In this document: positions 362 through 18,013 of the stretch, one piece after another
Layout: every line of letters starts with the position of its first letter
Numbering within the stretch: position 1 is the stretch's first letter
Origin: Candidatus Hydrogenedentota bacterium
GTDB lineage: Bacteria > Hydrogenedentota > Hydrogenedentia > Hydrogenedentales > CAITNO01
Direction: 5' to 3'
Length of the DNA stretch: 18,013 nt
Assembly (NCBI GenBank): GCA_029554925.1
Contig: JAKPUV010000007.1
Location: 1 to 18,013, forward strand
The notes under the pieces: generated by a model
Database searches by the model: none
The model's input: only the letters and a program-made list of their open reading frames with translations
Told to the model about the DNA's origin: nothing
Program-made: the position numbers and the translations under genes

Positions 362-913
362 TCAACGCTGCAGCGGTTGCCACTCCAAAATCATCTTGCG
401 CTGGGCGAGTGTCTGCGGGGATCTTTGGCCCGCCAAATAGGGGTCATGCCGACGCAGGTCCGCAATGTGGTTAAGCGCCTCCTCGCCCGTCAGCCCCTGC
501 TCCCGCAGCCAGCAGCCCACCACGGTTGCCGTGCGCCCATGTCCGCCCCAGCAGTGGACATACACGCAGCGCCCGGCGCTTCGGGCATGCCGAATCTTTT
601 CAAGGATGGCGGCCATACATTCTTTGGTGGGCACGCCAAGGTCAACGATGGGATAATTCACGCGCTCAAGTTCAATGCCCGCCTCGCGGGCAAGCCGTTC
701 CGCCATGGGCATGTACGGCGCGAACGGCCCCCAGGGCGACGTCTCATCCGGCTCTTGAAGCGAAATGAAAACGCGGACGCCGGCATCCAGCAGCCCCTGG
801 AGTTTCTTTCGCGCCTCCCCCTGGTCCCTGTCGCCAGGGAAGCATCCCGCCAGCAAGAGGCCGTCCTCCACCCACCACGACTTTGGAAAGGGCGCTTTCT
901 TGTTCTCGTTCAT
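362..913 (-). CDS. dual-specificity / tyrosine-type protein phosphatase
   Basis: This 183-residue protein resembles cysteine-dependent phosphatases. The P-loop VHCWGGHGRTAT holds the HCX5R signature: Cys121 would be the nucleophile and Arg127 the phosphate binder. Asp91 in the segment YPIVDLGVPT is a candidate general acid, and a Q-loop-like SPQTLAQRKMIL lies near 165-175. There is no signal peptide or membrane segment, so it should act in the cytoplasm on a phosphoprotein, phospholipid or nucleotide. ATG at 913 is chosen because it starts the family-like sequence and has AAGTGAG just upstream; the same frame extends further upstream but reads as low-complexity shadow. Its start follows the stop of the PQQ remnant by one base, which suggests translational coupling. 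It is the last gene of the minus-strand operon. Substrate unknown. Confidence 0.85.
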   Translation of the reverse strand: MNENKKAPFPKSWWVEDGLLLAGCFPGDRDQGEARKKLQGLLDAGVRVFISLQEPDETSPWGPFAPYMPMAERLAREAGIELERVNYPIVDLGVPTKECMAAILEKIRHARSAGRCVYVHCWGGHGRTATVVGCWLREQGLTGEEALNHIADLRRHDPYLAGQRSPQTLAQRKMILEWQPLQR

Positions 914-914
914 C

Positions 915-1154
915 TCACTTGCTGGCCTGTTTTTGGATGCAATAGAGCCGGGCGGAGGTGCGCAGGAGGAGGCGGTCCCCGGCGATGGCGGGGGTGGCCA
1001 TGCCCATGTCGTCCTCGGCCAGCGGGTTTTTGCCCACCAGCTCGAACTGGTCGCCCGCCCTGACCACGAAGGTGACGCCGTCTTCATTGAGGCAGAAGAG
1101 CTTGTCCCCATAGCCGGGCGTGGCGAAACAGGCCGGCTTTTCACAGAGACTCAT
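915..1154 (-). pseudogene. truncated PQQ-like beta-propeller protein (C-terminal remnant)
   Basis: The 79 codons encode only the final one to two blades of a BamB/PQQ-binding-like propeller. Visible are GDKLFCLNEDGVTFVVRAG, then PLAEDD, then ATPAIAGDRLLLRTSARLYCI, which is the typical closing strand pattern. Full-length relatives have about seven or eight blades and a signal peptide; here both are absent. ATG at 1154 is preceded by GGAAAGGA at a somewhat long spacing, and an alternative start at 1190 would overlap the glycosidase stop. The simplest reading is a gene that lost its 5' part by deletion, leaving a short open frame between glycosidase and phosphatase. It may still be translated and serve mainly to couple the phosphatase. 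The family call is good; whether it still functions is doubtful. Confidence 0.65.
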
Positions 1155-2530: not shown

Positions 2531-3614
2531 TCACTGTTTCAGCGTCTCGCGCTCCTCGTCATAGTCGGCGTTCTCCAGGGCGACGGCGCGGAACTCCTCG
2601 GCCAGTTCCAGGAAGACGGCGACGATCTCGGGATCAAAGGCGGTGCCGGACCCCTCCTGGATGATGGCGACGGCCCGGCTGTGGGGCATGGACGCCTTGT
2701 AGACGCGGTGGCTGATGAGGGCGTCGTAGACGTCGGCGACGGCCATGATGCGCCCGGCCAGGGGGATGTCCTCGCCCGCCAGCCCGTTCGGGTAGCCGGA
2801 GCCGTCCCATTTCTCGTGGTGGGAGAGGGCGATCTCGTGGGCGTGGCGGAGGAAGGAGTTGGCGCCGAGCCGTTTTTCGGCGGCGGCGATGGCCTTCGCG
2901 CCGAGAAGGGTGTGGGTCTTCATCACGGCGAACTCCTCCGGCGTGAGCTTGCCCGGCTTCAGGAGGATGCTGTCGGGGATGCCGACCTTGCCGATGTCAT
3001 GGAGGGGCGCGGACCGGTGGAGGTTGAAGACCTCCGTGTCGTTCAGGACCCCGGCGTGCTTCGGGGCGCGGGCGAGGGCGGCGGCGATCATGCGGACGTA
3101 GTTGCGGGTGCGCTGGATGTGGCCCCCGGTCTCGGGGTCGCGGCACTCGGCGAGGGTGCCCAGGCTTTCCATGGCGGCCTCCTGGGTCATGGACAGCTCC
3201 CAGGTGCGCTCCTGGACCAGCTCCTCCAGGCGGTCGCGGTGGCGCTTCAGCTCGATGTGGTTGCGCACGCGCGCCTTGACCAGTTCGGGGCTGAAGGGCT
3301 TGGTGATGTAGTCCACCGCGCCGAGGGCGAGGCCGCGGGCCTCGTCGCGCTCGTCGGTGAGGGCGGTGAGGAAGATGACGGGCACGTTTCTCGTGAGGAG
3401 GGACCTGGACAGGGCCTCGCAGACCTGGTAGCCGTCCATGCCCGGCATCATGATGTCGAGGAGGATCAAGTCGGGCGGTGTGTCGCCGGCGAGGTCCAGG
3501 GCGGCCTCGCCGTCGAGGGCCACGGCGACGTCATACTCGTCGCCGAGGGTCTCCACCAGGATGTCCAGGTTGGCCTCCGTGTCGTCCACGGCGAGGATGA
3601 GCGGCAGCGCGCGT

Positions 3615-3622
<8 letters not shown>
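2531..3622 (-). CDS. response regulator with HD-GYP phosphodiesterase output
   Basis: About 363 residues. An N-terminal receiver (about 8-120) has the acidic pair DD at 13-14, phospho-acceptor Asp56 in [11 protein letters not shown] and Lys107 in ITKPF. A short helical linker (about 120-150) leads to an HD-GYP domain with LHDIGK (HD near 207-208), [22 protein letters not shown] (GYP near 276) and a downstream [13 protein letters not shown]. All visible metal-binding histidines and aspartates are intact, so hydrolysis of cyclic di-GMP is the expected activity, controlled by phosphorylation. Its ATG overlaps the end of the kinase gene by 8 bp, with AAGGAGA upstream, so the kinase is very probably the cognate phosphodonor. 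Usual length and layout for the RpfG-type family. Confidence 0.95.
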
Positions 3623-7427
<3,805 letters not shown>

Positions 7428-7433
7428 GCCTCG

Positions 7434-7439
7434 CCTCCT
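7434..7439 (-). promoter_or_regulatory. ribosome binding site of the hybrid kinase
   Basis: On the minus strand AGGAGG stands 6 nt before the ATG at 7427. It decides the start, because the frame is open for another 42 codons upstream, into the region that also serves the divergent typA gene. Confidence 0.8.
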
Positions 7440-7456
7440 GTCCGGCGACCCCGTCC

Positions 7457-7486
7457 AGCATGCATGCGCCGGACCGGGACTGTCAA
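7457..7486 (-). promoter_or_regulatory. possible promoter of the kinase operon
   Basis: A perfect TTGACA lies on the minus strand at 7486-7481. With an 18-bp spacer the -10 would be CATGCT (7462-7457), a poor match to TATAAT. Location (about 30 nt before the kinase ATG) is right for a promoter, but the weak -10 makes this tentative; an activator could compensate. Confidence 0.3.
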
Positions 7487-7503
7487 GAAAAACGGCCCAA
7501 AAC

Positions 7504-7533
7504 TTGCCTTTTCGCGCGCCAAAGCCCCATAAT
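7504..7533 (+). promoter_or_regulatory. sigma70-type promoter of typA
   Basis: TTGCCT (7504-7509) and CATAAT (7528-7533) are separated by 18 bp, with four and five matches to consensus. Transcription would start near 7540, giving a leader of about 97 nt. The region diverges from the kinase operon promoter. Confidence 0.5.
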
Positions 7534-7596
7534 ACATGGGAATTTCCCCCCATGCCCGCCGGGGGCGCGGTGTGTGGTCCTGCACCGTCCCCGCCC

Positions 7597-7610
7597 CCCG
7601 GACATCCGGG
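7597..7610. repeat. small inverted repeat in the typA leader
   Basis: CCCGGA-CA-TCCGGG is a perfect 6-bp inverted repeat about 27 bp before the typA start codon. It could be a binding site or an RNA hairpin. In such GC-rich DNA it may also be chance. Confidence 0.25.
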
Positions 7611-7636
7611 CGCCCCCGCACCCCGAAAGAGGCCCC

Positions 7637-9532
7637 ATGACCCCCATAGACAAGATCAGGAATGTGGCGATCATCGCGCACATTGACCACGGCAAGACCA
7701 CGCTCATTGACAGCATTTTCCGCGCCGCCCACGTGTTCCGCGACAACGCCCGCGTGGTCGAGCGCGTCATGGACAACAACGAGATCGAGCGCGAGCGCGG
7801 CATCACGATCCGCGCGAAGCACTGCACCGTCGAGTGGAAGGGGCACCTGATCAACATCATAGACACGCCGGGCCACGCCGATTTCTCCGGCGAGGTCGAG
7901 CGCGTCCTGTCCATGGTGGACTCCGTGCTCCTGCTGGTGGACGCCAACGAGGGGCCCATGCCCCAGACCCGCTACGTGCTCATGCGCGCCCTGCGGTCCG
8001 GCCTGCGGCCCATCGTCATCATCAACAAGGTGGACCGCCCCCTCGCCGACCCCCACACGGCGCTGAACAAGACCTTCGACCTGTTCTTCGCCCTCGGCGC
8101 CACGGACGAGCAGTGCGACTTCGCCACGCTCTACGGGTCCGGGCTCGACGGCTGGCTCTCGCGCACCCCCGACGGCGGCCCCGACTGCGGCATGGAGGCC
8201 CTGTTCGAGACGATTGTCGAGCATGTGCCCGCGCCCAAGGGCGACCCGGACGCCCCCTTCCTCATGCAGGTGAGCACCCTGGGCTGGCGCGACCACCTCG
8301 GCCGCACGGCCACCGGGCGCATCCTCCAGGGCCGCCTCACGCGCGGCATGGACCTGACGCGCTGGGTCACCCGCCGGCTGGACGCGGGCTGGGCCGCCAC
8401 CGACACCCCCGGGGAGATGGAGTGGGAGGTCGCCGAGACCACCGCCGAGCGCGCGGTCCATGTGTGGGTGACGCGCGGGCTGGAGTCGGTCTCCAAGCAC
8501 GACGTGTCCGCGGGCGACATCGTCACCATCTCCGGACCGAAGGAGCTGAACATCGGCGACACCCTCGCCGCGCCGGAGCTGGAAAACCCCGCCCTGCCGC
8601 CCCTCGACATCGAGGAGCCCACGGTCTCCATGATGTTCCTCATCAACAACGGCCCCTTCGCCGGGCGCGAGGGCCGCGCCGTCACCCTGCGCCAGCTCAA
8701 GCTGCGCCTCACCCGCGAGCTGCGCGTCAACGTGGCCCTGCGCGTCGAGGAGGTGGGCCGCATGGACGCCGTCAAGGTGTCCGGCCGCGGCGAGCTGCAC
8801 CTGGCCGTCCTCATCGAGGAGATGCGCCGCGAGGGCATGGAGTTCTGCGTGTCCGCCCCCGAGATCATCACCCACACGGACGCCCAGGGCCGCCTGCACG
8901 AGCCGGTCGAGGAGCTGATCATAGACGTGCCCACGGAGCACCAGGGCGTCGTCATCGAGAAGGTGTCCCAGCGCAAGGGCGAGCTGGCGGCCATGCACAC
9001 CGGCGAGACCGGCATGACCCGCCTCGAGTTCCGCATCCCCACCCGCGGGCTCATCGGCTACCGCAGTGAGTTCCTCACCGACACCCGCGGCCTCGGCATC
9101 ATGGCCTCCCGCTTCGCCTGCTACGCCCCCTGGACCGGCGACATCCCCGGGCGCAACCGCGGCTCCATGATCAGCCTCGACACCGGCGACGCCACCGGCT
9201 ACAGCCTCGAAAACCTCCAGCAGCGCGGCACCCTCTTCGTCACCCCCCTGTCCCCCGTGTACGAGGGCATGATCATCGGCGAAAACTCCCGCCCCGGCGA
9301 CCTCATCTGCAACCCCACCAAGCGCAAGGCCCTCACCAACCACCGCGCCTCCAACAAGGACCAGACCGTCACCCTCGACGTGCCCAGGATCCTCACCCTC
9401 GACGCCGCCATCGAGTGGGTCGCCAACGACGAGCTCGTCGAGGTCACCCCCGCCGCCATCCGCGTGCGGAAAACCGTCCTCTCCTACGAGCTCCGCAAGA
9501 AGTCGGAAAAGGTCGCCGCCGCCGCCGAGTAA
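7637..9532 (+). CDS. typA: translational GTPase TypA/BipA
   Basis: 631 residues, close to the usual 600-620. TypA is a ribosome-associated GTPase of the EF-G-like superfamily, linked to 50S assembly and growth under stress. G motifs are intact: G1 AHIDHGKTT (14-22), G2 ERGITI (53-58), G3 DTPGH (76-80) and G4 NKVD (130-133). The beta-barrel domain II follows (about 200-300). The EF-G III/V-like domains include [18 protein letters not shown] and [11 protein letters not shown]. The TypA-specific C-terminal domain includes [18 protein letters not shown] and [12 protein letters not shown] 7637 is chosen over upstream in-frame codons because it begins the conserved [20 protein letters not shown] and has AAAGAGG 4 nt before it. 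It is a single-gene unit with its own promoter, diverging from the kinase operon. Confidence 0.98.
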
Positions 9533-9546
9533 GACGCAGGGCGGAA

Positions 9547-9595
9547 AGGCTTCAGGCTACAGGCTTCAGGCCTCAGGCTTCAGGCCTCAGACTCC
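9547..9595. repeat. heptanucleotide tandem repeat (7 units)
   Basis: Seven consecutive 7-bp units fill 49 bp directly after typA: AGGCTTC, AGGCTAC, AGGCTTC, AGGCCTC, AGGCTTC, AGGCCTC and a degenerate AGACTCC. The phase is perfect. The pattern resembles the short tandemly repeated (STRR) heptamers known from some bacteria. It starts 15 bp after the typA stop and probably lies in its 3' untranslated region. Confidence 0.85.
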
Positions 9596-9610
9596 TCCCC
9601 CCTGGGATCG

Positions 9611-9646
9611 CCAGGCTCTAGCCTGGCACCGCGCGCCCAAGCGCGC
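9611..9646. repeat. two adjacent short hairpins after typA
   Basis: CCAGGC-TCTA-GCCTGG (9611-9626) and GCGCGC-CCAA-GCGCGC (9631-9646) are perfect 6-bp stems with 4-nt loops, separated by 4 nt. Together they could end or protect the typA message. There is no T-run, so an intrinsic terminator in the strict sense is not supported. They may belong to a dispersed repeat family. Confidence 0.5.
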
Positions 9647-9676
9647 GTTCGCTCTCTTCCTCCCCCAGACTCCTCT

Positions 9677-9705
9677 TTGACTCCGCCCACCCCCTCCGCT
9701 ATCAT
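9677..9705 (+). promoter_or_regulatory. near-consensus sigma70 promoter of the hydratase gene
   Basis: TTGACT (9677-9682) and TATCAT (9700-9705) are separated by exactly 17 bp, with five of six matches in each box. Transcription would start near 9712, leaving about 22 nt of leader that contains the CGGAGAG ribosome binding site. This is the best promoter in the window. Confidence 0.7.
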
Positions 9706-9733
9706 TCCCTCACGCCTCCGGAGAGCAGACCTC

Positions 9734-10594
9734 ATGAGGATTGAAACACAACACCGCATCACCGCCGCCCTGTTTGTTTTGGCGCTGGCATCCGTTCTTT
9801 CGCCGACCGCTGGGGCGGCGGACGCCGCGGCGCCGGACTGGGTGGCTCCCTTTGCCGACCGCGTCCACGACGCGTGGCGCGACGGCACACCCATGCCCCA
9901 GTTGAGCGCGGCGTATCCGGAGGCTTCCCTGGCGGAGGCGTATCTGGTGCAGAAGCACTTTGTGGCGCGCAGGATGAAGCCCGACGGCATTGGCGGGTTC
10001 AAGGCGGCGGGCGTGGCGAGCACGGCGCCCGACCACCCTCTGGTCGCCGTGATGCCCGCTTCGGGCGTGCTGCATGCGAAGGACAAGATCGTCATAGACC
10101 TGGCCGGTGACCCGCGCCGCCATGTGGAGAATGAAATTGGATACGTCTTTCACCGGCCTGTGACGGAACCGCCCGCGGATGTGGAAGCGCTGCGCCGGTG
10201 TGTCAAGGCCGTTGTGGCGGTTGTCGAGGTTCCCGGCGGCGCGGTGGAGGAGGCAGGTCCCTCCACCACAAACGACATTGTCGCCTGGAACATCAACGCC
10301 AAGGAAATGATCCTTGGCGGGGAGCGGGATCCCGCCGCCGTGGACCCCGACGCCGTCACCATCACCTGCACCCGCGACGGCGAGACGGTCAACACGGCGC
10401 GGGGCGACCTGGCCGCCGGCGGGCAGTGGCACACGCTGCTGAAGACCGTGAACCGTGTCCTGCAGCAGGGCTACACCGTGCAGCCCGGCCAAGTCATCAC
10501 CAACGGCGCCCTGGGCAAGATAACGCCCGCCGCGCCGGGCCGCTACCGCGCGGACTACGGGCCGCTCGGCGTCATCGAGTTCGAGGTGCGGTAG
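9734..10594 (+). CDS. exported 2-keto-4-pentenoate hydratase-like protein (FAH superfamily)
   Basis: 286 residues from ATG 9734, with CGGAGAG 8 nt upstream. Residues 1-28 form a Sec signal peptide (core ITAALFVLALASVL, probable cut after TAGA-A). The mature part matches the MhpD-type hydratase fold: GFKAAGVAST, VENEIGYVFHRP with the metal-binding pair Glu132/Glu134, a further acidic residue Glu165 in VVEVPG, and near the end PGQVITNGALGKI, a version of the usual GDVVLTGALG motif. Family members hydrate 2-hydroxypenta-2,4-dienoate in aromatic catabolism and are normally cytoplasmic, so export is odd. No other meta-cleavage gene is nearby. The substrate is therefore open; an exported metal-dependent C-O or C-C lyase or hydratase is the safest statement. 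It is probably monocistronic, with repeats before the next gene. Confidence 0.85.
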   Translation: MRIETQHRITAALFVLALASVLSPTAGAADAAAPDWVAPFADRVHDAWRDGTPMPQLSAAYPEASLAEAYLVQKHFVARRMKPDGIGGFKAAGVASTAPDHPLVAVMPASGVLHAKDKIVIDLAGDPRRHVENEIGYVFHRPVTEPPADVEALRRCVKAVVAVVEVPGGAVEEAGPSTTNDIVAWNINAKEMILGGERDPAAVDPDAVTITCTRDGETVNTARGDLAAGGQWHTLLKTVNRVLQQGYTVQPGQVITNGALGKITPAAPGRYRADYGPLGVIEFEVR

Positions 10595-10619
10595 CGCCGG
10601 TAAGGGGCGTTGGCGGGAA

Positions 10620-10715
10620 CGAGACGGCTTCGCTTCGCTCGCCATGACGCGCTCCCCGCCGATGCACCACCAGACCGCCCCCCATCCCGTCATTGCGAAC
10701 GAAGTGAAGCAATCG
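10620..10715. repeat. inverted pair of REP-like elements
   Basis: Two related elements face each other. One, read on the minus strand from 10649 to 10620, begins CGTCATGGCGAGCGAAGCG and ends GCCGTCTCG. The other, on the plus strand at 10688-10715, begins CGTCATTGCGAACGAAGTG and ends GCAATCG. This core (CGTCATTGCGAGCGAAGCGA) is a dispersed motif seen in many bacterial genomes. The arrangement is BIME-like and fills most of the gap between the hydratase and the first HzsA-like gene. The rest of the gap (10716-10805) shows nothing further. Confidence 0.7.
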
Positions 10716-10805
10716 TTTTCTCGCTTTGGCTCCGGTCCAAGTCCGCCTTCCTTGGTGCCCCCGCGTCCGTGTGCGGTGCGTTTCCCCCGGCCGCCCGAAA
10801 TCCGG

Positions 10806-10811
10806 TAGAAT
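10806..10811 (+). promoter_or_regulatory. -10 box placing the start of transcription on the ATG (possible leaderless mRNA)
   Basis: TAGAAT ends 6 nt before the ATG at 10818, and no ribosome binding sequence is visible between. If it is the -10 box, transcription would start at or next to the A of the start codon. No good -35 box is present (only T/C-rich sequence at 10780-10788). Confidence 0.4.
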
Positions 10812-10817
10812 CCCCGC

Positions 10818-12902
10818 ATGGGCAGAGCATCTCTTGGCTTCAGGCCGGCCCGTGTGGGAACCGGCGTTCTTGCGGTGGCGGCCGCGCTTTTCTTTTCCGT
10901 TTCCGGCGCGTTCGCGGAGGAGGTCGTCTTTGCCACGCGGCCGATCTACAAGGACGGACACTGGTACGCCAACATCAGCTACTTCGCGCGGGACGCGGAA
11001 GAGAAGACCTATGAAAAGGGCGGTGGCCTGTATGTGGTGGACACGGACACGGGCCGGGTGCGGACGCTGGTGGAGGATGACGAGGGAACGGTCCGCGACC
11101 CCGCCGTCCACTACGACGGCAAGACCATCCTGTTCTCCTGGCGGCGAGGCGGTTCGGAGACCTTCCACCTGTTCACCATCCAGTCGGACGGGTCCGGCCT
11201 GGTGCAGCTCACGGACGGCGAATACGACGACTTCGAGCCCGCGTGGCTGCCCGACGGCGGCATTGTGTTCGTCTCCACCCGGTGCAAGCGCTGGGTGAAC
11301 TGCTGGCTGACGCAGGTGGCGGTGGTCCACCGCTGCGACGCGGACGGCGGGAACATTACCCCCCTCTCGGCGAACATCGAGCACGACAACACGCCGTGGC
11401 CCCTGCCGGACGGGCGCATCCTCTACACCCGCTGGGAGTATGTGGACCGGAGCCAGGTGGACTACCACCACCTCTGGGCCATGAACCCCGACGGCACGGG
11501 GCAGATGACCCATTTCGGAAACATGCACCCCGGCGGGCTCTACATTGACGCGAAGCCCGTGCCGGGGTCGGCGGAGGAGATCCTCTTCATCAACTCGCCC
11601 GGCCACGGCGCGCGCGAGCACGCCGGACACGTCGCGCTGGTGCAGGTGAAGAGCGGAGCGGACGACCTGTCGTCCATCCGCAACCTCACGGAAAGGGCGG
11701 AATACCGCGACCCCTACCCGCTGGACCATGACCGGTTTCTGGCGGCGAGGGGACGGCGGCTGGTGCTGCTGGACCGGGAAGGCCGCGAGGAGACGCTGTT
11801 TGAGCTGAAGCGCGACCGGAGGAGACTGGAACTGCACGAGCCCCGGCCCCTGCACGCGCGGGACCGCGAGCCCGTCATCCCGAAGCGCACCGACTGGACC
11901 CGCGCCACGGGCCGGCTCATCCTCTCCGACGTCCGCGCCGGGCGCAACATGGGCGGCGTCGCCCCGGGGGAGATCACCCGCCTGCTCGTCGTGGAGTCGC
12001 TGCCCAAGCCCATCAACTACACCGGCGGCATGGACCCCCTCACCTACGGCGGCTCCTTCACCTTGGAGCGCGTTCTGGGCTCGGTGCCCGTGGAGCCGGA
12101 CGGCTCGGCGAACTTCGAGGTGCCCGCCAACCGGTCTCTGTTCCTCATCGCCCTCGACAAGGACGAAAACTCCGTGAAGCGGATGCAGAGCTTCCTCACC
12201 GTCATGCCGGGGGAGACCCTGAGCTGCGTCGGGTGCCACGAGCCCCGCAGCACCGCCGCGCTCAACACCGGCCGGCCCAAGCTGGCCGCCCTGGAGCGTC
12301 CCGCCAGCGCGATCACGCCCGTGCCGGGCATCCCGGAGGTGCTGGACTTCCCGCGCGACATCCAGCCCGTCCTCGACCGGCACTGCCTGCCCTGCCACGA
12401 CTACACTCCCCACCCGCGCGCGGACCGCGGCCCCCGCGCGGGCGGCGTCATCCTCAGCGGCGACCGGGGCCCCATGTTCTCGCACAGCTACGCGGCGCTC
12501 TTCGCGCATTTGCAGGTCGCCGACGGCCGCGACCTCGCCAAAAGCAACCTCGCCCCCCGCAGCATCGGCGCCACGGCCAGCCCGCTCATGGACAAGCTGG
12601 GCGGCGGGCACTACGGCGTGGAGCCGTCCCCGGAGGAGGTGCGGCTGGTCCGCTACTGGATCGAGACCGGCGCGACCTATCCCGGCACCTACGCCGCCCT
12701 CGGCGGCGGGTCCATCGGCGGCTACTACGAGAACAAAGTCGTGGAGAACGACGCCGAATGGCCCGAGGCGCGCGCCGTTGCGGAGGTGGTGGACCGCCGC
12801 TGCGCCGCCTGCCACGAGGGGCTGACGAGCCTCCCGCGCGCCTCTCCGACGAGAACGGCCTCTCCTTCTGGCGCCTCGACGACTGGGAGGACCCGCGCGT
12901 GA
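10818..12902 (+). CDS. HzsA-like multihaem cytochrome, N-terminal main part (frameshifted)
   Basis: 694 residues as read. A Sec signal peptide ends at AFA-EE (about 33). Residues of about 35-340 form a TolB/PD40-like beta-propeller with blade motifs such as DGGIVFVSTR, DNTPWPLPDGRILYTRWEYVD and WAMNPDGTGQ. A middle domain of the hydrazine synthase alpha type (about 365-480) has VPVEPDGSANFEVPANRS and ends PGETLSCVGCH. Three CxxCH haem c motifs are visible: CVGCH (470-474), CLPCH (523-527) and CAACH (662-666). The protein should be a periplasmic c-type cytochrome. Hydrazine synthase itself is not implied, since its partner genes are absent. After about residue 673 the frame turns into Arg/Ser/Thr-rich nonsense and stops at 12902, while the expected C-terminus continues in the -1 frame. 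ATG 10818 gives the clean signal peptide. Confidence 0.85.
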   Translation: MGRASLGFRPARVGTGVLAVAAALFFSVSGAFAEEVVFATRPIYKDGHWYANISYFARDAEEKTYEKGGGLYVVDTDTGRVRTLVEDDEGTVRDPAVHYDGKTILFSWRRGGSETFHLFTIQSDGSGLVQLTDGEYDDFEPAWLPDGGIVFVSTRCKRWVNCWLTQVAVVHRCDADGGNITPLSANIEHDNTPWPLPDGRILYTRWEYVDRSQVDYHHLWAMNPDGTGQMTHFGNMHPGGLYIDAKPVPGSAEEILFINSPGHGAREHAGHVALVQVKSGADDLSSIRNLTERAEYRDPYPLDHDRFLAARGRRLVLLDREGREETLFELKRDRRRLELHEPRPLHARDREPVIPKRTDWTRATGRLILSDVRAGRNMGGVAPGEITRLLVVESLPKPINYTGGMDPLTYGGSFTLERVLGSVPVEPDGSANFEVPANRSLFLIALDKDENSVKRMQSFLTVMPGETLSCVGCHEPRSTAALNTGRPKLAALERPASAITPVPGIPEVLDFPRDIQPVLDRHCLPCHDYTPHPRADRGPRAGGVILSGDRGPMFSHSYAALFAHLQVADGRDLAKSNLAPRSIGATASPLMDKLGGGHYGVEPSPEEVRLVRYWIETGATYPGTYAALGGGSIGGYYENKVVENDAEWPEARAVAEVVDRRCAACHEGLTSLPRASPTRTASPSGASTTGRTRA

Positions 12903-13267
12903 TGCGCACCCGCCACCTGATGTTCAACCTCACCCGCCCCGAGCTGTCCATGATGCTCCTCGCCCCGCTGTCCCCCGACGCGGGCGGCTACGGACGCTGC
13001 AAGAACGCCGACGGCACGCCGGTCATCGCCGGCAGGGACGACGCCGACTGGCGAACGATCCTGGCCCTCAGCGAGGCGGGAAAACGCCGCCTCGACGAGA
13101 TCAAGCGCTTCGACATGCCCGGATTCGTCCCGCCCGCCCCCTACACCCGCGAGATGAAACGCTACGGCATCCTCCCCCCCGACACCAACCCCGCGCAGCC
13201 CTACGACTTCCGCGCCGCCGACCTCGCCTACTGGAACTCGTTCGTGTTCTCCCCGGCGGGGAAGTGA
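12842..13267 (+). pseudogene. displaced C-terminal part of the HzsA-like cytochrome
   Basis: From about 12842 the -1 frame encodes LSDENGLSFWRLDDWEDPRV, then MRTRHLMFNLTRPELSMML, and runs about 140 codons to the TGA at 13265-13267. The text fits directly after the LPRA of the upstream frame: one extra C in the GCGCGCC stretch near 12836-12842 would restore a single protein of about 816 residues. The upstream stop and an ATG of this frame overlap as TGATG (12900-12904), so re-initiation could in principle yield a 121-residue piece. The conserved-looking residues before that ATG argue that a frameshift, real or a sequencing/assembly error, is the better explanation. Confidence 0.75.
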
Positions 13268-13289
13268 CGCCGGTGTCAACGCCCATAGC

Positions 13290-13362
13290 GTAGACGCGGC
13301 ATCTTGCCGCGTTCTTGGGGCCTTCTGTTGACCTGAAGAACGCGCCAAGATGGCGCGTCTAC
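13290..13362. repeat. twin-hairpin REP/BIME-like element
   Basis: Two 26-bp arms, 13290-13315 and 13337-13362, are reverse complements at 24 of 26 positions and are separated by 21 nt. Each arm also folds on itself: GCGGCA-TCT-TGCCGC in the left, GCGCCA-AGA-TGGCGC in the right. The two mismatches are a compensated G/C exchange that keeps each inner hairpin intact. It lies 22 bp past the end of the cytochrome remnant and may stabilise that message's 3' end. Confidence 0.8.
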
Positions 13363-13403
13363 ATTCCCGCCAACGTCCTGCCGTGCACGAGTACCCGCGT
13401 TTC

Positions 13404-13431
13404 TTGAGAAGGCGTTTCCGGCTGGTATATG
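13404..13431 (+). promoter_or_regulatory. possible promoter of fic
   Basis: TTGAGA (13404-13409) and TATATG (13426-13431) are 16 bp apart, five and four matches to consensus. The start of transcription would fall near 13438, about 54 nt before the fic ATG. A perfect 12-bp palindrome lies between them. Confidence 0.4.
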
Positions 13432-13450
13432 GTTTGACCATGCGGCGCTT

Positions 13451-13462
13451 CCCGGCGCCGGG
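13451..13462. promoter_or_regulatory. palindrome in the fic leader, possible operator
   Basis: CCCGGCGCCGGG is a perfect 12-bp palindrome located between the proposed fic promoter and the start codon. It could bind a dimeric repressor. Chance is a real alternative in this GC-rich DNA. Confidence 0.25.
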
Positions 13463-13491
13463 GTGTCCCACGCAGGTCTGGATTGCGGCCC

Positions 13492-14508
13492 ATGAGCAAG
13501 AGTCCCTATCAGCCGCCCTACACACTCACCCCCGCCATGCTTCGCCTGGTGGCGGAGATCGGCGAGATGGTGGGCCGCTACACGGCCCTGGCCGAACAGG
13601 CGCTGACACCAAAACTCCGGCGCGACAACCGCATCCGCACCATCCACGCCTCCCTGGCCATCGAGGCCAACACGCTCACCCTCGAACAGGTCACCGCCGT
13701 GATTGCGGGCCGGCGGGTGCTGGGACCGCCCCGCGAGGTGCAGGAGGTGAAAAACGCCTTTCAGGCCTATGAGGCCATGGAGCAGTGGGACCCCTCCCGG
13801 GAGGCGGACCTCCTCGCCGCCCACGGGACCCTGATGGCCGGTCTGGTGGACCGTCCCGGGGCCTACCGCCGGGGCAAGGTGGGGGTGTTCCGCGGGAAGA
13901 CCCTGGTCCACATGGCCCCGCCTGCGGCCCGGGTTCCGGGGCTGGTGGCGAATCTCCTGGGGTGGATCGCCAGGACGGAGGAACATCCGCTGGTGGTCGC
14001 CTGTCTCGCGCACTACGAGCTGGAGTTCATCCACCCCTTCGACGACGGCAACGGGCGCATGGGAAGACTGTGGCACACCCTCCTCCTGCGCACCTGGCGG
14101 CCCCTGCTTGCCTACCTGCCCGTCGAAACGGTGGTGCATGAATGCCAGGAGGACTACTACCGCGCCCTGGCCGAATCCGACAGGGCCGGGGACGCCTCCC
14201 CGTTTGTCATGTTCATGCTCGGGGCGCTGTCCCAGGCCCTTGCCAATGCGGCGACCGACCAAGTAACCGACCAAGTAACCGACCAAGTAGCGCGGCTGTT
14301 GCGTGTGTTCGGCGGGGGCGAGATGAAGGCAGGCGACCTGATGGCGGCGCTGAAGCTTTCCCACAAGGCATCTTTCCGGACCTCGTATCTGGATCCGGCA
14401 TTGGCGGGCGGATGGATCGAAAGAACAAATCCTGAATCCCCAAACAGTCCCATGCAGTCCTACCGGCTGACGGAGCGGGGGCGGAAGTGGGTGCGCGACA
14501 ATGAATAA
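13492..14508 (+). CDS. Fic/DOC family protein with C-terminal winged helix
   Basis: 338 residues. Fic enzymes transfer AMP or other phosphate-containing groups from nucleotides to proteins. The active-site motif HPFDDGNGRMGR (181-192) is complete, with catalytic His181. Upstream, SLAIEAN (54-60) matches the inhibitory helix motif of class II Fic proteins, with Glu58 present but Ala where Gly is usual; this suggests built-in autoinhibition. The flap region includes RRGKVGVFRG (127-136). Three TDQV units (255-266) link the Fic core to a predicted winged-helix domain (about 267-338) that may bind DNA, for instance its own palindrome. ATG 13492 starts the family-like sequence; its ribosome site is weak, and a TTG at 13483 is the alternative. 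The gene's end overlaps the start of the next gene by 8 bp. Confidence 0.92.
   Translation: MSKSPYQPPYTLTPAMLRLVAEIGEMVGRYTALAEQALTPKLRRDNRIRTIHASLAIEANTLTLEQVTAVIAGRRVLGPPREVQEVKNAFQAYEAMEQWDPSREADLLAAHGTLMAGLVDRPGAYRRGKVGVFRGKTLVHMAPPAARVPGLVANLLGWIARTEEHPLVVACLAHYELEFIHPFDDGNGRMGRLWHTLLLRTWRPLLAYLPVETVVHECQEDYYRALAESDRAGDASPFVMFMLGALSQALANAATDQVTDQVTDQVARLLRVFGGGEMKAGDLMAALKLSHKASFRTSYLDPALAGGWIERTNPESPNSPMQSYRLTERGRKWVRDNE
14254..14289. repeat. 12-bp tandem repeat inside fic (3 perfect copies)
   Basis: ACCGACCAAGTA is repeated three times without a mismatch. It keeps the reading frame and encodes Thr-Asp-Gln-Val each time. The repeat forms the linker between the Fic core and the winged helix. 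Copy number could change by slippage without breaking the frame. Confidence 0.9.
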
Positions 14509-17500
14509 ACAATTGCTGACCCTTGCCATCCCCGTCTTGTCGGTATTCATGGGCGCCGCGTCTGCCGCTCCCCTGAACATCGCCTTCCTGAGCGCCGAGA
14601 GCGCGGCGGAGAAGATCGGGCCGCATGAGCGGGGCGCGTGGGAGGCGGCGCGGACGCTGGGGAACGCCACGCTGCTGCTGTTGCAGGAGTCGGGGGCGTT
14701 TCAGGACACGCAGGGCGCGGTCCGGAAACTGGAGGAGTTCCAGGTGGTCTGGTACCACCAGGGGGACGCCATCGCCTACAACGCCATGTACGGCGGCCCG
14801 GCGATCACCGCCCTCCGGTCCTATGTTGGAAACGGCGGCGGCGCGCTGCTGTCGGGCGGCGCGCTCGCGCTGATTGACAACCTCGGCGTGGAGACCTATG
14901 TCCGTTCCCAGCGCCGGGACATCGAGAACTACCGCGACCCGGCCGCTCTGGTGCCGGAGGAGCCCGCCCACCCGGCTTTCGCCGGGCTGCCGCTGGAGGA
15001 CGGCCGCATCTGGCTGAGCGCGGGCGGGTGCCGGGCGCTGGCGGACTTCTACTGGGGCGGCCCGGGCGCGGCGATGGTGCTGGGGAACACGCCGCGCGGC
15101 GTGGAGCGCCCGCTGGCGGAGTACGCGCCCGGCAGCGGCCGTATCATCGTCTTCGGATGGCGCTGGCCCGACTACGCGGACGTGGAAAACCCCCACCGCG
15201 AGAATCTGCTGCGGCTGACGTCGAACCTGCTCGCCTATCTGGCCGCGCCGGACACCTGGGTGCCCTTCGCCATCCGCACCAAGTTCCCCGCACGGCGGCA
15301 TCCGGAAACGCCCGGCGTTTCCGCCCAGCAATGGCGCGCCCTCCGCATGGCCGTCGAGGACCTGTCGAAGTCGTTCCCGGACACCTATCCCGGCGGCGCG
15401 GGGTTCCTCGCGCGGCTGGCGGCGCTGGAGGCGGAGCAGGGCGCCCTTCCCGCCGGGAGCGGACCGGAGGCCCACGCGGGGATCGTGGAGCGGTTCGCGG
15501 CGCTCCAGCGCGAGGCACTGCTGGCCAACCCGCTGCTGGATTTCGAGCGCCTGCTGATGATCCGGCGCTCCGCTGAGAACCCCGGTCTCCTCCACAACTC
15601 CTATGGCAACGACGACCTGCCCCCCGCGGCGTACCAGAACACCGTGGTCGCTCTGGACTACAAAACCCCGGGGGCAACTCCGGAGACCCTCTACACGCCG
15701 CCCGCCGACGTGTATCTCGGCGATCTGGACCTGCACTGGGACGCCGAACGGATGCTCTTCTCCATGCCCGACGACACGGGCAAGTGGAACATCATGGAGC
15801 TGCGCCTCGCCGACGGCCAGTGCGCGCGGGTTCCCCTCATTGAGGACCCGGACATCCACAACTACGACGCGTGCTATCTGCCCGACGACCGCATCGTGTT
15901 CACCTCGACGGCCCCCATTGTCGGCGTGCCCTGCCTCGGCGGGCGGTCCAAGGTGGCCAATCTCTACCTGCGCGGGCTCGACGGCGGCATCCGTCGCCTG
16001 ACGAACGACCAGGACCACAACTGGTGCCCGGCGGTGCTCAACGACGGGCGGGTGCTTTACCAGCGCTGGGAGTACGCCGACATCGCCCACGCCTTCACGC
16101 GCCTGCTGTTCAGCATGAACCCCGACGGCAGCCGCCAGATGGAGTACTACGGCAGCAACTCCTTCTGGCCGACGGCCATGTTCTTCGCGCGGCCCGTGCC
16201 CGGCCACCCGACGAAGGTGGTCACCATCGTCGGCGGCCACCACGACGAACCCCGCCAGGGGGAGCTGGTCGTCCTCGACCCGACCCTCGGCCGCACGGAG
16301 GCGAACGGCGTGGTGCAGCGGATCCCCGGCTTCGGCGAAAAGGTGGAGCCCGTGATCCTCGACGGGCTCATCTCCACAAGCTGGCCCCGCTTCCTGCATC
16401 CGTACCCCCTCGGCGAGAAGTACTTCCTCGTGTCCTGCCGCCCCGCATGGGACGCCCTCTGGGGCGTGTACCTGGTGGACGTGTTCGACAACTTCACGCT
16501 CCTGTACGAGGAGCCGGGCCGGGCGATGTTCGAGCCCGTCGCCCTTCGGAAGACGCCGCGCCCCCCCGTGATCCCCGACGTGGTGAAACCGGAGATGACC
16601 ACTTCGGACGTCATGCTGGCGGATGTCTATGTGGGTCCCGGCCTGGCGGGGGTGCCCCGGGGCTCCGTGAAGTCCCTGCGGCTCATCAGCTACGACTTCA
16701 CCTTTCACGGCCTCGGCGCGGAACCGGACCGCGTCGGGCTGGACGGCCCGTGGGACGTGAAGAAGATCGTCGGCACGGTCCCCGTGGAGGACGACGGCTC
16801 CGCGTATTTCCGCATGCCCGCCATGACCCCTGTCGCCGTGCAGCCGCTGGACGCCGACGGCAAGGCGCTGGCCCTCATGCGGAGCTGGATGACCGGCGTG
16901 CCCGGCGAGACCCTTTCCTGCGTGGGCTGCCACGAGCGGCAGAACACCACCAGCCTGCCGGGGATGCAGCCGAAGGCCTTCCGGCGTCCGCCCTCCGACA
17001 TCGCGCCCTGGCACGGCCCCCAGCGGGGCTTCTCCTTCGAGCGCGAGGTGCAGCCCGTGCTCGACGCGTACTGTGTGGACTGCCACGGGCCGGACACAGG
17101 CCCCTTCGACCTTACGGCCAAACCGGCGGAGCGGGTGCCCTCGGCGTTCCAGATGCACTTCTCGCCGTCCTACATGGAGCTGCGCCGCTGGGTGCACACG
17201 CCCACCCTGGAGAGCGACGCGCACCTCCTTCCCGCGCGGGCCTTCCACGCGGACACCAGCCGCCTCGTCCAGATTCTCCGCGACGGGCATTACGGCGTGA
17301 ACCTCTCCCCCGAGGCATGGGACCGCATTGTCACCTGGATAGACCTCAACGCCCCCTTCCATGGCACATGGAAGGAGGTGGTCGCCGCCAACCCGGAGAA
17401 GCATGCATTGGCGCTTCAGGGCGCGGCACGGCGGCGGGAGCTGCACCTGCGGTATGCCGGGATGGACGAGGACCCCGAGGCGATTCATCCCGCACCGGTG

Positions 17501-18013
17501 CTGGAAAAGCAGGCGGCGGCTCCGGCGGAGACGAACGCTGAACTCGTCATGGGCGGCCCCGCGACCCCGCCGGTCGTGCCCGCCGCAAGCCCGGCCGTGG
17601 AGCGCGTGGACCTGGGCGACGGCGTGGCGCTGGAGCTGGTGCGCGTGGCGGCGGGCGAGTGTGTCCTGGGCACGGACCACGGGCTGCCCAACGAGGCGCC
17701 GGCGCGCCCGGTTCGCTTCGACCGGAGCTTCCTCATGGGACGCTGCGAAATCACCAACGCGCAGTTCCGGCGCTTTGACCCCGTGCACGACAGCGGCCTG
17801 GAGACCGGCGAGGCCTACCAGTTCGGCGACGACGAGCGCGGGTTCACCCTCAACCGCCGGGAGCAGCCCGCGGTGCGCGTGTCCTGGGAACAGGCCGCCG
17901 CCTTCTGCGAATGGCTCTCGGCGCGGACGGGCCGCCGCTTCGCCCTGCCCACGGAGGAGCAGTGGGAGTACGCCTGCCGCGCGGGCACGGCCACCCCGCT
18001 CTGGTACGGCACC
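14501..18013 (+). CDS. giant fusion: GATase-like domain + HzsA-like dihaem cytochrome + FGE/SUMF1 domain (3' partial)
   Basis: The frame is open for 1171 codons to the right edge without a stop. A Sec signal peptide (MNKQLLTLAIPVLSVFMGAASAA) covers about 1-23. Residues of about 24-250 resemble a class I glutamine-amidotransferase/ThuA-like fold (NIAFLSAES, SYVGNGGGALLSGGAL, GSGRIIVFGWRWPDY). A propeller follows (about 380-690) with NWCPAVLNDGRVLYQRWEYAD, FSMNPDGSRQMEYYGSN and FARPVPGHPTKVVTIVGGHH. An HzsA-type middle domain (about 725-815) has VPVEDDGSAYFRMPA and haem motif CVGCH (807-811). A cytochrome-like segment has CVDCH (858-862). After an Ala/Pro-rich linker (about 995-1033) an FGE-sulfatase domain begins: RCEITNAQFRRF, PAVRVSWEQAAAFCEWL and FALPTEEQWEYACRAGT, cut by the window end. 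It should be periplasmic. ATG 14501 overlaps the fic stop (ATGAATAA). Function unknown. Confidence 0.88.
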   Translation, partial: MNKQLLTLAIPVLSVFMGAASAAPLNIAFLSAESAAEKIGPHERGAWEAARTLGNATLLLLQESGAFQDTQGAVRKLEEFQVVWYHQGDAIAYNAMYGGPAITALRSYVGNGGGALLSGGALALIDNLGVETYVRSQRRDIENYRDPAALVPEEPAHPAFAGLPLEDGRIWLSAGGCRALADFYWGGPGAAMVLGNTPRGVERPLAEYAPGSGRIIVFGWRWPDYADVENPHRENLLRLTSNLLAYLAAPDTWVPFAIRTKFPARRHPETPGVSAQQWRALRMAVEDLSKSFPDTYPGGAGFLARLAALEAEQGALPAGSGPEAHAGIVERFAALQREALLANPLLDFERLLMIRRSAENPGLLHNSYGNDDLPPAAYQNTVVALDYKTPGATPETLYTPPADVYLGDLDLHWDAERMLFSMPDDTGKWNIMELRLADGQCARVPLIEDPDIHNYDACYLPDDRIVFTSTAPIVGVPCLGGRSKVANLYLRGLDGGIRRLTNDQDHNWCPAVLNDGRVLYQRWEYADIAHAFTRLLFSMNPDGSRQMEYYGSNSFWPTAMFFARPVPGHPTKVVTIVGGHHDEPRQGELVVLDPTLGRTEANGVVQRIPGFGEKVEPVILDGLISTSWPRFLHPYPLGEKYFLVSCRPAWDALWGVYLVDVFDNFTLLYEEPGRAMFEPVALRKTPRPPVIPDVVKPEMTTSDVMLADVYVGPGLAGVPRGSVKSLRLISYDFTFHGLGAEPDRVGLDGPWDVKKIVGTVPVEDDGSAYFRMPAMTPVAVQPLDADGKALALMRSWMTGVPGETLSCVGCHERQNTTSLPGMQPKAFRRPPSDIAPWHGPQRGFSFEREVQPVLDAYCVDCHGPDTGPFDLTAKPAERVPSAFQMHFSPSYMELRRWVHTPTLESDAHLLPARAFHADTSRLVQILRDGHYGVNLSPEAWDRIVTWIDLNAPFHGTWKEVVAANPEKHALALQGAARRRELHLRYAGMDEDPEAIHPAPVLEKQAAAPAETNAELVMGGPATPPVVPAASPAVERVDLGDGVALELVRVAAGECVLGTDHGLPNEAPARPVRFDRSFLMGRCEITNAQFRRFDPVHDSGLETGEAYQFGDDERGFTLNRREQPAVRVSWEQAAAFCEWLSARTGRRFALPTEEQWEYACRAGTATPLWYGT

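Follow-up and report, generated by a model that had tools for sequence, protein, structure and literature searches.

What do relatives of hydrazine synthase do in a bacterium of the Hydrogenedentota? The question is raised by the window analyzed here, a stretch of 18,013 nucleotides that is a whole contig (C14; JAKPUV010000007.1) of a Candidatus Hydrogenedentota bacterium (GCA_029554925.1). The genome is a 4.74-Mb metagenome assembly of 1350 contigs, 97.7% complete and with 9.3% contamination. Two large open reading frames, here called protein A and protein B, encode exported proteins resembling the alpha subunit of hydrazine synthase (HzsA), and a Fic gene (PF02661) lies between them, as the initial annotation had described. 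That annotation proposed an undescribed periplasmic redox function, possibly on nitrogen compounds, and took the tandem placement as a sign of related roles. The observation itself was real and correctly spotted, and is partly confirmed as one on members of a known family; its first reading is partly supported. Our best overall explanation, for which belief and doubt are evenly balanced, is that A and B are distant HzsA-related multihaem proteins acting in redox chemistry on the carbohydrate side.

The HZS_alpha middle-domain family PF18582 was detected in both proteins above its curated cut-off of 26.6 bits, and both middle domains end in PGETLSCVGCH. In the predicted models the beta-propeller, middle domain and haem II domain follow one another in the order of HzsA, which bears out the propellers proposed earlier. 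The fold of A was taken from an AlphaFold2 model of P0121, a protein 94% identical to A. The top VIA-align match of this model is the HzsA chain 5c2v_D over aa 31-633, with 543 residues superposable at 2.6 A; TolB chains match the propeller stretch over about aa 24-348. The B model also has 5c2v_D as its top match (aa 346-851), with the haem II region poorly modelled. An HzsA-like middle domain is therefore present in both predicted structures.

Protein A contains three CxxCH motifs (aa 470, 523, and 662) and protein B two (807 and 858). Several motifs per protein had been reported correctly, but three and two are totals that include the middle-domain motif, not further copies. Shuffled sequences of the same composition carry 0.0038 (A) or 0.0046 (B) motifs per protein, and none of 5000 reached the observed number. 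All three motifs of A were found in 79 of 79 aligned sequences, and both motifs of B in 57 of 57. Based on these conserved motifs, A and B are predicted to be exported c-type cytochromes binding several haems; a cytochrome c assembly gene (PF01578) is present in the genome. It is virtually certain that both are cytochromes of the HZS_alpha family. They are only 31% identical over 578 alignment columns, and are thus old paralogues.

Protein searches at E 0.001 gave at least 6364 homologues of A and at least 5145 of B. Among the matches listed, the closest named relatives are from Candidatus Hydrogenedentes, and one homologue of A (P0210) is named "HzsA-related protein" by NCBI. Across the phylum, PF18582 is present in 46 of 68 genomes, with a maximum of 21 matches per genome. 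Strong relatives of A (E <= 1e-100) occur in 20 of these 68 genomes and relatives of B (E <= 1e-150), related paralogues counted in, in 31. Named loci of the family come from Verrucomicrobia, Planctomycetota, Acidobacteria, Armatimonadetes, and Lentisphaerae, among others. The genome of the window has 12 PF18582 matches. The matches on contigs C352 and C1115 (loci L074 and L002) share 1424 bases that are 92% identical; they are probably a single gene seen in two strains, and the assembly is therefore likely a mixture of both. Export, an HzsA-like fold and several haem motifs agree with the periplasmic redox function proposed initially, but the pair, as two of 12 matches, is not unusual. Non-anammox HzsA-related homologues have been discussed (PMC12758564; PMC10732223), and the accessible parts of these papers report no activity for them. 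Literature searches found no paper joining Hydrogenedentes with hydrazine synthase, and none joining hydrazine synthase, polysaccharide, and Verrucomicrobia cytochrome c. A and B are members of a large, already noticed family. Haem-motif proteins of this family have expanded greatly in Planctomycetota, Verrucomicrobiota, Hydrogenedentota, and others, and they are kin to a unique enzyme of the nitrogen cycle; PF18582 matches in metagenomes should not be read as anammox signals.

A and B are almost certainly not hydrazine synthase. The HzsA equivalog model NF052339 scores 62.2 bits with A and 30.7 bits with B, against a cut-off of 800. According to the accessible parts of two papers, the iron in HzsA has Tyr591 as its ligand, and His587, from the haem motif, holds a zinc (PMC12607021; PMC12758564); a rhombic high-spin signal at g 6.29/5.65 is reported for HzsA (PMC12607021). 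Residues of 5c2v were converted with a chain numbering offset of 27, checked with His689. HzsA reads CSGCHYGSYRGR where A has GCHEPRST and B has GCHERQNT; set against the CHYGSYRGR of HzsA, CHEPRST (A) and CHERQNT (B) have no Tyr at the place of Tyr591. Our alignment puts a two-residue gap at Gly589-Ser590 and pairs Tyr591 with Pro476 of A; the published alignment, as far as accessible, has the gap at Ser590-Tyr591 (PMC12758564). Either placement leaves both proteins without a Tyr at this site. Opposite the zinc-site Cys303 (chain residue 276), A has Met236, though the alignment is weak there (5.6 bits), and the matching stretch of B, YYGSNSFWP, has no Cys. According to the same source, no homologue conserves this Cys, and even among anammox bacteria it is not universal (PMC12758564). 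A search of the haem II stretch of A for the distal His of HzsA aligned 50 residues and no more. An identity as hydrazine synthase was rejected on the NF052339 scores, the lack of a Tyr591 equivalent, and the lack of a beta-gamma gene on this contig; the initial annotation, too, had not described A and B as a full hydrazine synthase.

The comparison of haem ligands with Kuenenia HzsA, which that annotation had recommended, revealed a second difference beside the absent Tyr591: the Ala found in HzsA 14 residues ahead of the first haem I Cys is replaced by Met. We collected 384 distinct middle-domain segments around CxGCH (Gly-Glu or Gly-Gln just before) and reduced them to 162 at <80% identity; the sample, confined to proteins related to A and B and the genomes these occur in, does not stand for the whole family. 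Met occupies position -14 in 160 of the 162 segments (Trp and Lys in the others), and the residue after the haem I His is Glu in 149 and Asp in 9. HzsA has Ala and Tyr at these two places, in an ungapped stretch of the alignment. Among profile-found, redundant open reading frames with a haem motif, 437 of 439 have the Met; 12 rows without a haem motif are secondary domain matches or cut contigs, in which a loss of Met together with the motif is not readable. This regularity is new. Methionine is not mentioned in the accessible parts of PMC12758564, the one paper where the -14 Met was looked for. As judged from sequence, a role of this Met as sixth ligand of haem I, giving a His/Met haem, is plausible.

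Two indirect lines of evidence point towards glycans. The first comes from relatives of A: an F5/8 type C domain was found in 19 of the 50 members of A4, a 50-sequence alignment, and the N-terminus of the profile of A1 (the 79-sequence alignment) resembles chitosanase modules. The second is the front domain of B, which goes beyond the domains initially listed. Its fold resembles levan-utilisome chain 8aa2_G, which we take to be the surface glycan-binding protein of that system; on this modelled likeness the front domain may bind glycans. The tail of B is better seen in P0001 (99% identical over 1171 aa; full length 1292 aa), in which the FGE-like domain is whole (PF03781, E 1.1e-42). The active-site cysteine pair of the human formylglycine-generating enzyme (FGE) is presumably Cys336/Cys341. 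At the two sites, 117 of 120 B homologues, P0001 being one of the 120, have Asp or Asn, and Ala, Gly, Thr, or Ser; the RGGS motif was not found in the other three, and B of the window ends before it. A working FGE tail was ruled out on the absence of both cysteines in these 117, and no FGE activity is expected of it. F5/8C, ThuA/DUF4960-like, and FGE-like domains, the -14 Met, and a chorismatase/Rid-like gene (see below) receive no mention in the accessible parts of PMC12758564 and PMC10732223.

Taken together, we propose the following for A and B. Haem I would be a c haem of the ordinary kind with His as a ligand, the near-invariant Met possibly supplying the sixth, and would serve as an electron relay, not as a site where ammonia and hydroxylamine are condensed. 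Anchoring to glycans or to a sugar-derived substrate would fall to the accessory domains. Electrons would travel via haem II (and III in A) to an acceptor in the periplasm. The product of an HzsBC-like gene, located elsewhere in the genome in an operon with two other HZS_alpha genes, may be the partner of A; in other lineages, A homologues stand beside a fused HzsBC-like gene (CCP/MauG-type dihaem plus propeller). What is firm here is the predicted fold, the invariance of the haem motifs, and the absence of the HzsA Tyr ligand. A carbohydrate-associated periplasmic redox role for the two proteins falls somewhat short of an even chance, and we hold the carbohydrate link, with similar reserve, as the likelier of several guesses.

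Several observations weigh against this reading. Protein A of the window lacks an F5/8C domain, as do 31 of the 50 A4 members at the same threshold. A sequence search of PDB gave no match for the front domain of B, its likeness to the levan utilisome is by fold alone, and ThuA-like proteins match it by fold too. The B model is poor over most of 840-1010, and the -14 Met may be structural. In 18 B loci, no carbohydrate-enzyme family recurs, and Gfo/Idh/MocA (in 3) is the sole neighbour family found in at least 3. The aldolase and kinase genes discussed below neighbour other paralogues, not A or B.

A wider and distinctly speculative extension, which we think improbable though worth stating, is that the non-anammox HzsA-related proteins make up an undescribed class of haem oxidoreductases that are periplasmic, tethered to glycans, and equipped with a His/Met haem I. 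A complete system would be a complex of such an alpha-type protein with a beta-gamma partner of the HzsBC-like, CCP/MauG type, and its sugar-derived products would go to a cytosolic kinase/thiolase and to a chorismatase/Rid-like hydrolase. Hydrazine synthase would have branched off from this class, its haem I being opened for new chemistry once the Met was lost and a Tyr gained close by. The different conserved neighbour of haem I and the glycan-type accessory domains make both the origin of hydrazine synthase and the function of the family testable. The -14 Met of the superfamily, the HzsBC-like partner, and the sugar-side context are worth following.

The related roles initially read from the tandem placement are not supported. 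Most likely, the A-Fic-B arrangement joins two distant regions, by assembly chimera or by recent recombination at a palindrome, and the pair is not a biological unit. In blastn comparison with the sister species, window positions 7492-13271 are collinear with contig C111 and 13384-18013 with contig C104; A and B are thus on separate contigs there, and synteny breaks at a palindromic repeat between A and the Fic gene. The palindrome has 57 matches in the genome of the window and 76 in that of the sister species (both strands counted), and the repeat lies <=30 bases from the start of six sister contigs (C36, C52, C71, C124, C125, and C153). Fragmentation into 1350 contigs, 9.3% contamination, and the apparent mixing of strains fit the same explanation. 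The junction is either a chimera or a rearrangement, and the sister species may be the rearranged one. In four loci from other phyla (L087, L090, L092, and L117), B-like HZS_alpha, A-type, and HzsBC-like genes stand in a row, so mixed HZS_alpha pairs exist elsewhere, although these B-like genes score only 1196-1269 with the B model (one, cut, 537) and eight B orthologues 2301-2536. Given the synteny with the sister species and the repeat where the two regions meet, A and B were judged unlikely to act as a tandem unit.

The recommended survey of neighbourhoods gave a divided result: genes resembling the fused beta-gamma subunit (HzsBC-like) occur near A in some lineages, but B has no recurring partner beyond the Gfo/Idh/MocA genes. 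Among 13 A loci, 4 have an HzsBC-like gene, 4 a chorismatase-like gene, and 3 a Gfo/Idh/MocA gene; a further group of genes is common to 3 loci, all from a single genus. Several locus contigs are short, so these neighbour counts are lower bounds. Fic as a partner was ruled out, no Fic family being found in at least 3 of the 18 B loci; a Fic gene precedes B in the sister species too.

An alternative that we regard as unlikely, yet deserving attention, is that A and the genome's own HzsBC-like protein make up a complex like HZS, with A as its alpha-like subunit, which performs a CCP/MauG-type oxidation of an organic or amine substrate, and that B is a stand-alone paralogue. The absence of a beta or gamma gene, as initially noted, is correct for the contig of the window, where a search with the HzsBC-like alignment gave no match; the genome does encode such a gene, on contigs C1115 and C1273. 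Several relatives encode, after an HZS_alpha gene, a protein of about 600-630 aa with a YVTN propeller and two CxxCH motifs. Two such HzsBC-like proteins score 147 and 162 bits with NF052342 (hydrazine synthase beta-gamma fusion; cut-off 1250), two match MauG-type models, and a third matches 5c2v_B (E 2.2e-33) and 5c2v_C (E 1.5e-25). The gene is present (E <= 1e-80) in 40 of the 68 genomes of the phylum: in 38 of 46 with PF18582 versus 2 of 22 without (Fisher 6e-9, kinship ignored), and in 19 of 20 genomes bearing A (Fisher 8e-5, kinship ignored). By coordinates, relatives of A lie directly beside it in 6 of these 20 (G020, G024, G030, G042, G043, and G044), all six outside the family of the window. 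Of 80 named A loci, many of which have short flanks, 30 carry an HzsBC-like gene above 200 bits in the sequence flanking A (26 of 80 by BLAST clustering); a chorismatase/Rid-like gene follows the HzsBC-like gene. Inside that family, A was not beside the HzsBC-like gene in seven loci (L062-L066, L068, and L069), some with short flanks, nor was it in L067 and L070, from two other families. In the family of the window, the HzsBC-like gene is grouped with two other HZS_alpha genes (L043, L048, L051, and L052), which may monopolize its product. The PMC12758564 and PMC10732223 copies, in the parts accessible, adjoin HzsBC-like genes, whereas A and B have no such neighbour in the loci of this family examined.

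The corresponding operon of the genome is covered in turn by three contigs, each about 91-92% identical to the sister operon in L043, from which we infer the gene order. C352 carries an aldolase-like gene (NF006081, 432.6 bits; cut-off 297), a gene for a protein without a family, HZS_alpha-1, and part of HZS_alpha-2; C1115 carries HZS_alpha-2 (with the overlapping stretch described above) and the start of the HzsBC-like gene, and C1273 its end and the chorismatase/Rid-like gene. Genes for chorismatase FkbO/Hyg5-like or Rid-like proteins were seen after the HzsBC-like gene in ten loci (L043, L048, L051, L052, L054, L055, L071, L072, L073, and L077) besides C1273 (L169); no signal peptide is apparent by eye in these proteins, and two of them score 55 and 63 bits with TIGR04444 (cut-off 325). 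Genes of the 3-hydroxy-5-phosphonooxypentane-2,4-dione thiolase type, above cut-off, lie beside HZS_alpha operons at L051:1408-2295, L056:12264-14806, and L074:104-988, and Dak1/Dak2 (dihydroxyacetone-kinase-type) genes are near the operon in L056.

A still less likely possibility is that A and B are electron-carrier or docking scaffolds without catalysis of their own, with low-spin haems only and the propeller as a hub for protein-protein contacts. Propellers often act as docking surfaces, TolB propellers match the same stretch, the near-invariant -14 Met would fit a low-spin His/Met haem, and the HzsA Tyr ligand is absent. All 79 sequences of A1 keep the propeller residues R205-W206-E207-Y208, D210, and H263-G264 of A unchanged, a stricter conservation than a scaffold would seem to require, and the 12 PF18582 matches of the genome, with differing accessory domains, suggest differing substrates.

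A divergent hydrazine-synthase-type or NO/hydroxylamine enzyme is very improbable: the nitrogen-compound role suggested initially draws on the overall fold common with HzsA, the presence of an HzsBC-like gene, and a proposal that Phycisphaerae hzsABC-like genes are possible novel anammox genes (PMC10732223, in its accessible part, which also suggests a broader family with alternative substrates for less similar copies), and against it stand the NF052339 scores and missing Tyr, the replacement of gamma Cys165 (Gly in 10 of 10) and His144 (Ser 5, Val 2, Ala 2, Gly 1) in HzsBC-like proteins, no match to PF13447 (HAO/HDH type) in the genome, although control genomes gave none either, and the same negative verdict on other members in the accessible part of PMC12758564. 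Apart from the common fold, nothing found here speaks positively for nitrogen compounds.

The features of the window are collected in Table 1. The open reading frame of A stops early because of a one-base frame difference from the sister species, which is either a sequencing or assembly error or a real lesion. The C-terminus encoded in the second frame matches that of P0121-P0123, and the three closest relatives are 804-816 aa long. The region of the 2-keto-4-pentenoate-hydratase-like gene is collinear with A in the sister species as well. Rfam and tRNA scans of the window gave no matches.

Table 1. Features of the 18,013-nucleotide window (forward-strand positions).
Feature	Position	Strand	Remarks
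Protein A, open reading frame, 694 aa	10818..12902	+	open reading frame list; Sec-type signal peptide by eye
A, TolB/HzsA-type beta-propeller, about aa 31-349	10908..11864	+	VIA-align; PD40 at aa 128-155
A, HZS_alpha middle domain PF18582, aa 413-475	12054..12242	+	E 3.7e-20, 72.7 bits
A, haem I motif CVGCH, aa 470-474	12225..12239	+	Met456 14 residues upstream
A, haem II motif CLPCH, aa 523-527	12384..12398	+	aligned with HzsA haem alphaII CAMCH
A, third motif CAACH, aa 662-666	12801..12815	+	past the HzsA-aligning stretch; kept in 79/79
One-base difference from sister-species gene	12830..12848 (about)	+	shifts frame of A
C-terminal remainder of A gene, second frame	12848..13267	+	within open reading frame 12233-13267
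Dispersed palindromic repeat, 123 bases	13268..13390		about 80-base palindrome; A/Fic junction
Fic/DOC protein PF02661	13483..14508	+	Fic-like C-terminal domain; between A and B
Protein B, open reading frame, 1171 aa	14501..18013	+	cut by contig end; Sec-type signal peptide by eye
B, N-terminal domain, aa 23-249	14567..15247	+	ThuA-like/DUF4960-like
B, beta-propeller, about aa 346-698	15536..16594	+	predicted fold
B, HZS_alpha middle domain PF18582, aa 721-812	16661..16936	+	E 4.8e-27, 94.8 bits
B, haem I motif CVGCH, from aa 807	16919-16933	+	Met793 14 residues upstream
B, haem II motif CVDCH, aa 858-862	17072..17086	+	
B, start of FGE-sulfatase/SUMF1-like domain PF03781, aa 1045-1165	17633..18013	+	E 1.2e-20; cut by contig end
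2-Keto-4-pentenoate-hydratase-like protein (FAA_hydrolase family)	9677-10594	+	apparent N-terminal signal peptide (by eye)
Hybrid histidine kinase	3615-7553	-	PDC/Cache, HAMP, PAS, receiver stretches, Hpt
Response regulator with HD output domain	2531-3622	-	adjoins hybrid histidine kinase
Dual-specificity-type protein phosphatase (PTP-SAK)	362-1144	-	upstream part of open reading frame may be spurious

Compared with HzsA of Kuenenia (5c2v), A and B keep the succession of propeller, HZS_alpha middle domain, and haem alphaII-type domain, and the haem I and II motifs of A align with those of HzsA. They differ from it in the missing Tyr591 ligand and the Met at -14 in place of Ala, A also in its extra third haem motif and B in its front and tail domains; Cys303 is seemingly absent in A, where the alignment is weak. 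The front domain of B has a fold in common with levan-utilisome chain 8aa2_G and with ThuA-like proteins, with no sequence similarity found in PDB. Its tail has the PF03781 domain in common with formylglycine-generating enzyme, PvdO, and GldK (SUMF1-like fold), but not the active-site Cys pair. The nearest known counterparts are the non-anammox HzsA homologues (clades I-IV of PMC12758564; PMC10732223), which by PF18582 and fold belong to the same superfamily as A and B. In the accessible part of PMC12758564, key HzsA residues are likewise missing from these homologues, and many have an HzsBC-like gene nearby.

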